Origin: Microbacterium paraoxydans
GTDB taxonomy: Bacteria; Actinomycetota; Actinomycetes; Actinomycetales; Microbacteriaceae
Direction: 5' to 3'
Assembly: GCF_020524545.1 (NCBI RefSeq)
Contig: NZ_JAIVLG010000004.1
Coordinates: forward strand, 310,001 to 374,000
DNA length: 64,000 nucleotides
The notes under the pieces are model-generated. The model saw only the letters and a list, made by a program, of their open reading frames with translations. It searched no databases and was not told the DNA's origin. A program made the position numbers and the translations under genes. Positions 27,429-29,170 of the stretch are shown piece by piece (the stretch's first letter is position 1; each line of letters opens with the position of its first letter).

Positions 27429-28133
27429 GTGTGTGAGACGACTTCCAGCGCCCTGCCGTTCGCGATGATCTCCCGCTCGGCGTTGGCGGCAGGAGCGTCG
27501 GCGGCTGTACAAGTCGGCGGTCGTATCGCGGATCTGCGACGCGATGCCTGGGGTCACGGAATCCTCGCGGTCGCACAGGCGGTGACCGCGGCAGGCGCCG
27601 AACGGGTGCTGGTCGACTCCGTCGGAGAGATCGAGGCGCTGCGGTTGGAGGGGATCGTCGGGGTGACCTCGGAGGAGGCGGACATCGAACCGACTCTGCT
27701 CTACGGGCTCCCGGACGAGCAGGGCGTCCTCGCGACGCAGCCGGTGATGCGCCTCAGTGGCCATGTGCTGTCCGTCAAGCGATTGCGGGCCGGGGACGCG
27801 GTGTCGTACGGGTACACATATCGTGCACCTGCAGAGACCACGGTGGCGCTGGTGACCGGCGGTTATGCGCAAGGAGTCGTCCGCGCACTCGGAAATCAGG
27901 CCCACGTCGACGTCGACGGCGTTGCGCGACCCATCATCGGACGGGTCGCCATGGACGTCTGCGTCGTCGATCTCCAAGGTTCCGATCTGGATGTCGGCTC
28001 GGAGGTCACCTACTTCGGAGGGCGAGGCACGGCGCAGGCGGGAGTCGCGCGGTGGAGCGCGATCACCGGCATGGAGGCGGCGGAGCTCGTCACGGTTGCG
28101 GGCGCACACGCTGTGCGGGGGTGGGAGGCATGA
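27429..28133 (+). CDS. Alanine racemase C-terminal-domain protein with a collapsed barrel (subunit A of a proposed split racemase)
   Basis: Protein of 234 residues. Residues 14-75 resemble the first strands of the alanine racemase barrel. The PLP-lysine segment reads DLRRDAWGHG, with Arg37 where the lysine should be. About 150 residues of barrel are then missing, and the sequence jumps to the hinge LLYGLPDEQG. The C-terminal domain (about 104-234) is intact: Tyr127 in VSYGYTY is the usual catalytic tyrosine, with Tyr146 in TGGYAQG 19 residues later as in the family, and Met175-Asp176 in GRVAMD. It cannot bind PLP alone. The stop overlaps the next start (ATGA), implying coupled synthesis with the barrel protein. 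Confidence 0.82.
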   Translation: MCETTSSALPFAMISRSALAAGASAAVQVGGRIADLRRDAWGHGILAVAQAVTAAGAERVLVDSVGEIEALRLEGIVGVTSEEADIEPTLLYGLPDEQGVLATQPVMRLSGHVLSVKRLRAGDAVSYGYTYRAPAETTVALVTGGYAQGVVRALGNQAHVDVDGVARPIIGRVAMDVCVVDLQGSDLDVGSEVTYFGGRGTAQAGVARWSAITGMEAAELVTVAGAHAVRGWEA

Positions 28134-29170
28134 CCCGGCCGCAGCTGCGGATCAGCAGTGCCGTCTTCCGCGCGAACGTCGAGGCCGTTCGAGCGCGCAT
28201 CGCACCGTCGACCCTCATGCTCGTGCTCAAGGACGATGCCTACGGTCACGGCCTGGCATGGGCGGTCGAAACGGCTTCGAAGGCGGGCATCGACTGGTTC
28301 GGGAGCTACGACATCGCAAGCGGCTCGGAGGTTCGGCGTCTCGCCGGAAGAGACGCACGCGTGTTCGCGTGGGCCACATCGACGGACGCGGAGGTCGACG
28401 ATGCCCTGCTGCACCGTATCGACCTCGGGGTCGGCACCGCCGAGTATCTGCAGCGCATCATCGCCCGCGCAGATGCGTTGGGCGCGCAAGCCCGGGTGCA
28501 CTTGAAGATCGACACCGGCCTGCACCGAAACGGCATCCTGCCGGAGGACTGGGCCGGCGTCGTCGCGGAGGCGCGGGCGGCGGAGGCCGCAGGCCTCCTC
28601 GAGCTGGAGGGCGTCTGGAGTCACATAGCCGAGGCGAGCGATGCCGAGGATGATGATGCTCAGGCGGTGTTCTTGGATGCGGTCGGTGTGGTGGGGGAGT
28701 CCGGTCCCGTTCCGCCCGCACTGCATCTGACCGCATCAGCTGCCTCGTGGTGGCGTCCGGAGATGCGTGGTTCGGTCTCGCGCATCGGCGCGTTCTGCTA
28801 CGGCATCCGATCCGCGGAGGGGCCGGACCTCGAGGGTGTTCGACCTGCGGCAAGTCTGGTGGCGACGGTGGTCGAGGTCGGCGGCGACGATGCAGTGATC
28901 TCGATCGGCAGCTTCGACGGCCTTCCATCGACGTTGCGGGGTGTCAGCGTGGGGACGCCGCGGGGGCCCCGGACGCTCACGGCCGTAGGGCACACGACCT
29001 CGATCGTCGGGCGCTGGCCGGGAGCGAGTGCGGGTGACGAGGTGACGCTGTTCGGCGCGGGCGCGCACGGGGAGTCTTCCGCGACCACGCTCGCAGAGCG
29101 CATCGACACGGTCGGCGAGGAGATCCTCACCCGGCTCACCGCGCGCGTGCGCAGGGCCGTCGTCGACTGA
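28130..29170 (+). CDS. Alanine racemase-like PLP barrel protein lacking the catalytic tyrosine segment (subunit B of a proposed split racemase)
   Basis: Protein of 346 residues. Residues 5-235 are a complete alanine racemase barrel: PLP Lys34 in LVLKDDAYGHG, HLKIDTGLHRNGI with the conserved Arg, a histidine in GVWSHIAEA, the Ser in LTASAASWW, and RIGAFCYGI. The C-terminal domain (about 240-346) is degenerate. The VSYG-type tyrosine segment is absent, the sequence passing from ATVVEVGGDDAVISIGSFDG, and the Met-Asp motif is replaced by TAVGHTTSIVG. The upstream protein has exactly the missing parts. A heterodimer with one composite active site is my inference; the substrate may be alanine or another amino acid. 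Confidence 0.85.
   Translation: MTRPQLRISSAVFRANVEAVRARIAPSTLMLVLKDDAYGHGLAWAVETASKAGIDWFGSYDIASGSEVRRLAGRDARVFAWATSTDAEVDDALLHRIDLGVGTAEYLQRIIARADALGAQARVHLKIDTGLHRNGILPEDWAGVVAEARAAEAAGLLELEGVWSHIAEASDAEDDDAQAVFLDAVGVVGESGPVPPALHLTASAASWWRPEMRGSVSRIGAFCYGIRSAEGPDLEGVRPAASLVATVVEVGGDDAVISIGSFDGLPSTLRGVSVGTPRGPRTLTAVGHTTSIVGRWPGASAGDEVTLFGAGAHGESSATTLAERIDTVGEEILTRLTARVRRAVVD

Follow-up and report, generated by a model that had tools for sequence, protein, structure and literature searches.

A gene pair of Microbacteriaceae predicted to encode a one-site heterodimeric racemase of the alanine racemase fold, probably acting on a diamino acid

Alanine racemase is the textbook homodimer and an antibacterial target, and a locus where two overlapping genes each resemble a part of it raises the question of whether the two products form one enzyme and, if they do, what that enzyme is for. 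We examined such a locus within a 64,000 nucleotide stretch of the Microbacterium paraoxydans genome (assembly GCF_020524545.1, contig NZ_JAIVLG010000004.1, positions 310,001 to 374,000 of the forward strand), termed here the window, whose own numbering is used for all coordinates below; the two genes and all of their residues lie on its + strand. Gene A (27429..28133, 234 aa) encodes an alanine racemase C-terminal domain with a barrel stub, and gene B (28130..29170) encodes a barrel that carries the lysine. The GTG start of gene A at 27429 was assigned from its conservation among relatives; an alternative ATG is at 27465. The stop of A and the start of B overlap by 4 nt (ATGA, 28130..28133), as was the case for 100 of 108 pairs; within the genus a 4 nt overlap (ATGA or GTGA) was seen for 26 of 28 pairs, the other two showing TGATG (G004) or a start at -13 (G030). 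A sequence-only reading of the window had given these coordinates, frames and overlap, all of which were reproduced, and had proposed that A and B are the complementary halves of one alanine racemase.

Protein A matched only PF00842, the C-terminal domain (102 bits); protein B matched PF01168 (146 bits) along with a partial PF00842 beginning at profile position 35 (34 bits). Scored against the equivalog model TIGR00492, A reached 105.3 bits and B 120.9 bits, neither attaining the cut-off of 168. The AF2 monomer models had pLDDT values of 90.8 (A) and 94.4 (B), and Foldseek ranked alanine racemases at the top for both. The B model aligned to a Streptomyces alanine racemase with a TM of 0.91 (by query). 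The best 50 PDB matches listed for the A model were racemases or engineered relatives, the best of them by E-value having a TM of 0.50 by target length and 0.76 by query; A spans only about half of one racemase chain.

Two partial matches lying end to end could be the remnants of a frameshifted gene or a pair of decaying pseudogenes, and the 4 nt overlap, the broken or short B frame at three of the 108 pairs (L104, L134, L150) and the broken frame of an ordinary alr in the draft genome G066 would all fit such an origin. It is nonetheless contradicted by the data, and we assign it a negligible probability. The two are not pieces of one gene split by a frameshift, because B has a C-terminal domain of its own besides that of A; nor are they a pseudogene pair, since pairwise dN/dS over seven genomes was 0.13–0.28 for A and 0.15–0.37 for B, showing that both are under purifying selection, and since the arrangement is kept across the family.

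The known alanine racemase has two sites, and each combines the Lys39 of a subunit with the Tyr265 of its partner (PMC3485190, PMC3245724). The distribution of these and the neighboring residues was counted for 108 A–B pairs, jointly aligned with seven full-length racemases. The pairs came from 109 loci, made up of 80 loci from named genomes (the best 80 of 419, of which 78 were titled Microbacterium) and 29 loci (L073–L101) from the family search, the window's own included; species are shared between these two sets, so the 108 pairs are not all independent. The catalytic tyrosine, Tyr265 of the B. stearothermophilus enzyme, was found in 108/108 A proteins (Tyr127, 27807..27809) and in none of the B proteins, where its column is a gap throughout and the approximate place of the missing loop is 28880..28894. 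Conversely, the PLP lysine was found in 107/108 B proteins (Lys34, the Lys39 equivalent, 28229..28231), the one gap being the broken frame of L150, and in none of the A proteins, which have Arg in 99, Asp in 5, Ala in 3 and Ser in 1 at this place (Arg37, 27537..27539, in the window). Protein A also keeps Tyr146 (Tyr284 equivalent, 27864..27866; Tyr in 103 and Phe in 5 of 108) and Met175-Asp176 (Met312-Asp313 equivalents, 27951..27956; Met in 108 and Asp in 106 of 108), and at these last two columns B has Met in 2/108 and Asp in 23/108. Protein B keeps Arg133 (Arg136 equivalent, 28526..28528) and His165 (His166 equivalent, 28622..28624) in 108/108, and Arg218 (Arg219 equivalent, 28781..28783) in 107/108, the exception being L104 with its broken frame. 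The same result came from a broader set of 41 pairs that shares 25 with the 108: tyrosine 41/41 and lysine 0/41 in A, lysine 41/41 and tyrosine 0/41 in B. With respect to the features of TIGR00492, the PLP lysine was on B only and the catalytic tyrosine on A only, and never on one polypeptide that exceeds the cut-off. The alignment bears out what had been described from the window's letters, namely an A that keeps Tyr127, Tyr146 and the Met-Asp motif with Arg37 replacing the PLP lysine, and a B that keeps Lys34, Arg133 and Arg218 with the tyrosine segment and the Met-Asp motif gone; the complementarity across the 108 pairs supports the idea of two racemase halves.

Since each site of the known enzyme takes its lysine from one subunit and its tyrosine from the other, A and B would hold between them one complete site and one empty site. 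B would hold PLP on Lys34 with Arg133, His165 and Arg218, and A would reach across with Tyr127, Met175 and Asp176, like the second subunit of the homodimer; the opposite site would be dead, because A lacks both the PLP lysine and an intact barrel, and B the tyrosine loop. We infer from this pattern, with high confidence, that A and B pair as an obligate heterodimer with the alanine racemase fold, in which the chains share one composite active site. B might instead be an enzyme by itself, perhaps as a homodimer that employs another base, with A as a dead regulatory partner in the manner of a prozyme, and dead paralogues that activate their partners have been described (PMC5201418); yet A keeps the very tyrosine, methionine and aspartate that a partner subunit donates, and B is without the tyrosine and the methionine in the comparison of 108 pairs, which makes a self-sufficient B very improbable.

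If the heterodimer is obligate, the two genes should travel together, and the sequence-only reading had proposed their adjacency in related genomes as a check. In the genus sample of 35 genomes (G000–G034), 28 carried A and B together, adjacent in each and always with A before B; this co-occurrence rules out that they are chance neighbors. The same search took in 23 genomes from other families, and among their listed matches no A–B neighbor pair was seen. Neither gene was found in the remaining seven of the 35 Microbacterium genomes (G008, G012, G013, G015, G018, G025, G031); for five of these (G008, G013, G015, G025, G031) the alr was read and was an ordinary full-length gene with Tyr354. B stood beside A on the same strand at 108 of the 109 loci, the exception (L149) being at a contig end. 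Apart from L149, A occurred alone only in G069, likewise at a contig end, and a single B-profile match without a nearby A-profile match, in G114 (C1), had an internal stop. Neither half was regularly found by itself, and the co-occurrence in 28/28 carriers, the adjacency at 108/109 loci and the fusions described below agree with a permanent partnership.

The survey was extended to 84 further genera of the family, each represented by one genome, using both profiles and sorting the coordinates by script. An A-then-B neighbor pair was found in 25 of the 84 (G058, G063, G065, G072, G085, G087, G090, G093, G094, G095, G098, G101, G110, G111, G112, G114, G115, G123, G124, G126, G130, G133, G134, G137 and G141; those of G126 and G134 from coordinates only), A alone in one (G069), and a B-A fusion only in two (G077 and G106). 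Nine genera had tandem full-length racemases (G061, G064, G068, G083, G088, G091, G092, G097 and G128), eight of these tandems being read in sequence and that of G128 by coordinates. The sampled genomes of the other 47 genera had no pair, tandem or fusion, so that the D-diamino acids of the family need not all come from an A–B system. Outside the family no A-type gene was seen among 198 order-wide genomes (Microbacterium-only profile, E 1e-30), and four A-like partial matches in the order sample proved on inspection to be full-length ordinary genes. In G066 (L253), which belongs to the 47 genera without these arrangements, the barrel and the C-terminal domain of an ordinary alr are in different frames, a simple break unlike the A–B pairs.

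Tandems, intermediates and fusions provide a view of how the halves may have arisen. In the tandems read from eight genera, the gene with Tyr354 was first and the gene with an acidic residue at 354 was second (8/8), and both genes keep the lysine and the tyrosine; the labels "ordinary" and "acidic" as used here for tandem genes are defined by the residue at 354 itself. Intermediate states included a full-length A in G065 with the PLP lysine changed from K to T, nearly full-length A proteins at L081 and L085 with K changed to D, and a B in G094 that keeps the length of the tyrosine loop without its tyrosine. Natural B-A fusions, each a single ORF, were found in G077, G349, G130, G192 and, with a minimal A part, G106. 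G130 and G134 each have a second composite in B-A order besides their A–B pair, fused in G130 and of two genes in G134. In all six B-A composites (the five fusions and that of G134) the lysine is in the B part, which is without the tyrosine loop, and the A part shows the opposite; 6/6 B parts retain Tyr354. Of the evidence at hand, such natural joining of the halves speaks most strongly for A and B working as one enzyme. The racemase frames of L258 (G106), L239 (G091) and L243 (G064) were seen by eye to run on into TsaE-like sequence, the B-A-TsaE open frame of G106 being 789 aa.

In a tree of the barrels, 41 B proteins and 8 full-length acidic-354 enzymes formed one clade (support 98/80), with the full-length enzymes nested among the B proteins; in a tree of the C-terminal domains, the acidic-354 enzymes formed a clade (98/87) that took in two other rows but none of the A proteins. 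Bootstraps were unsettled in both trees, the C-terminal domain tree had few columns, and the long A barrels were unplaced. In AU tests, a grouping of A with the acidic paralogue clade was weakly rejected (p 0.03; the group was named after seeing the tree), a grouping of A with the ordinary, Tyr354 paralogue was not rejected (p 0.13), and neither was a single clade of all A proteins (p 0.13). A single origin of all B proteins was rejected (p 0.004; this group, too, was named after seeing the tree), and the A/B split has therefore probably arisen more than once. The order of the genes agrees with the C-terminal domain tests, the ordinary gene being first (now A) and the acidic gene second (now B). 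The B-A composite of G134 has a B-type barrel outside the acidic clade and an A-type C-terminal domain inside it.

The starting point would have been an older tandem pair of full-length racemases, the ordinary one with Tyr354 followed by one with Glu or Asp at 354, which then decayed in a complementary manner, its first gene becoming A and its second B. A descent of A from the ordinary and B from the acidic tandem gene, with a mirrored outcome in G134, is likely on these comparisons, albeit not proven. The sequence-only reading had proposed duplication and complementary decay: the decay is upheld by the residues, the intermediates and the fusions, and the duplication is better replaced by an older tandem of already different racemases. 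A broader proposal, that one-site racemase heterodimers evolved repeatedly as a two-site tandem ancestor was resolved in opposite ways, seems to us evenly poised between right and wrong. The ordinary racemase and its acidic-354 paralogue would have been able to pair with each other; in the A–B lineages the first gene would have lost the lysine and the second the tyrosine, leaving one diamino-acid site, and in the B-A lineages (most clearly G134) the first would have lost the tyrosine and the second the lysine, leaving one alanine site, with the two products joined in a single chain in some genera.

The residue at 354 bears on the substrate. According to PMC3485190, the pocket of alanine racemase is lined by Tyr354, which limits it to alanine; lysine racemases have another residue at this place, and in a docked model of one of them that residue contacts the side-chain nitrogen of lysine. 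The five solved alanine racemases shown have Tyr at this place. Of the 106 B proteins that were readable here (gaps at L104 and L134), 92 had Glu, 14 had Asp and none had Tyr; the window's B has Glu330 (29117..29119). The seven full-length racemases used for comparison had Tyr in five, the other two being paralogues from the window's own genome, with Asp on C12 (L004/L008) and His on C6 (L002/L006). An acidic residue at 354 would suit a basic side chain, and because the B pocket has a conserved Glu or Asp there, the most likely substrate is a basic diamino acid, an assignment that we hold to be quite probable. The new substrate that had been guessed at from the window is to this extent supported, and remains a reasoned guess from sequence. 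Such a substrate does not require the split, since full-length acidic-354 enzymes with both catalytic residues also exist.

The single-site heterodimer could also be an ordinary alanine racemase that serves as a second source of D-alanine. In the reduced genome G072 (one contig, 927,303 bp; L244) no Alr-like gene other than the pair was found at the thresholds used, which counts against the diamino-acid substrate: although its B appears acidic at 354 by eye, the pair may have to supply D-alanine there. In G077 and G106 the Tyr354-keeping B-A fusion is the only match at these thresholds. However, the window's genome has three further full-length alr-like genes, on C2, C6 and C12, which answers the question raised by the sequence-only reading of whether such a gene exists elsewhere, and an ordinary alr with Tyr354 is present; a further match besides the pair was found in 26 of the 28 genus carriers (none in G003, 94% complete, or G030, 77% complete); B is acidic at 354 in every readable case; and full-length relatives of B sit in tandem with an ordinary racemase in 8 genera. 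Taken together, we think it unlikely that the A–B pair is a D-alanine enzyme.

To return to the diamino-acid reading, taxonomists have recorded D-ornithine and D-diaminobutyrate in the walls of Microbacteriaceae, the D residue being located in the cross-bridge of type B peptidoglycan. We found no gene for either in the open-access literature, and the A–B pair is a concrete candidate for the enzyme that supplies D-ornithine (or D-diaminobutyrate) to this peptidoglycan. D-ornithine was reported for M. sufflavum, M. galbinum and the related type strains compared with them in PMC10757982, and both named species are in our list of A–B carriers; the same source has L-lysine instead of D-ornithine in some Microbacterium species, and L-lysine species may be the origin of the seven genomes that lack the pair. 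The link is one-sided, being drawn from D-ornithine carriers. That A–B makes D-ornithine for the wall we judge to have an even chance of being correct. For the reading as a whole, we infer a one-site heterodimer that is probably an ornithine (diamino-acid) racemase for peptidoglycan, and we favor it with some reserve. The prediction is open to test within one genus, with species that differ in this amino acid.

MurE was considered as a marker of wall type and was rejected, its motif not separating 14 genomes with the pair from 8 without it. In most of the genomes read the MurE substrate motif was HHPR or QHPR, the exceptions being DNPY in G004 and DNPA in an additional MurE of G018 (the loci noted were L206 in G018, L207 in G004 and L211 in G000), and these differing motifs could mark different third-position residues.

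Divergent from A is a gene for an ATP-grasp protein (PF14397; 26332..27348, - strand), which is a possible ligase using the D-amino acid, but it is absent beside several pairs. At 79 named pair loci it was opposite to A at 53, on the same strand at 9, and not found in the fetched flank at 17, and genomes without the A–B pair have ATP-grasp homologues; it was accordingly rejected as an obligate member of the locus. Between sigA and the ATP-grasp gene is a short F420 gamma-glutamyl-ligase-like protein (PF01996; 25572..26267, + strand) that scores under the NCBIfam cut-offs and was present in the flank at 56 of the 79 named loci.

A full-text search of the open-access literature for phrases describing a split or heterodimeric alanine racemase returned no match, and no such enzyme was seen among the matches listed, going by their titles and the starts of their abstracts. 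The A–B pair is widespread in this family as a variation on a known fold, and has probably evolved repeatedly. With the two catalytic bases on different gene products, and with intermediates and fusions persisting in one family, it offers a case study for a homodimer turning into an obligate heterodimer. Compared to Alr (TIGR00492, PF01168 plus PF00842), A and B combined have the same fold and the same catalytic and PLP-binding residues, Tyr354 excepted; they differ in that these residues are on two polypeptides with one predicted site instead of two, that Tyr354 is replaced by Glu, and that neither half reaches the equivalog cut-off (105 bits for A and 121 for B, against 168). Serine palmitoyltransferase LCB1/LCB2, a eukaryotic PLP enzyme, pairs a live subunit with a dead paralogue; in this it resembles A and B, whereas its PLP fold is another one. 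The racemases Lyr and Bar (PDB 4dza, 4dyj), which prefer lysine, are like B in having the Alr fold with a substitution at the Tyr354 place, Thr391 in Lyr and Ala393 in Bar, which is thought to make room for larger substrates; as described in PMC3485190 they are homodimers with Thr or Ala, whereas A–B is split and B has Glu or Asp. The trypanosome AdoMetDC and its prozyme also form a working complex with a catalytically dead paralogue; that prozyme relieves autoinhibition, according to PMC5201418, whereas A would instead donate a catalytic residue to the site of its partner.
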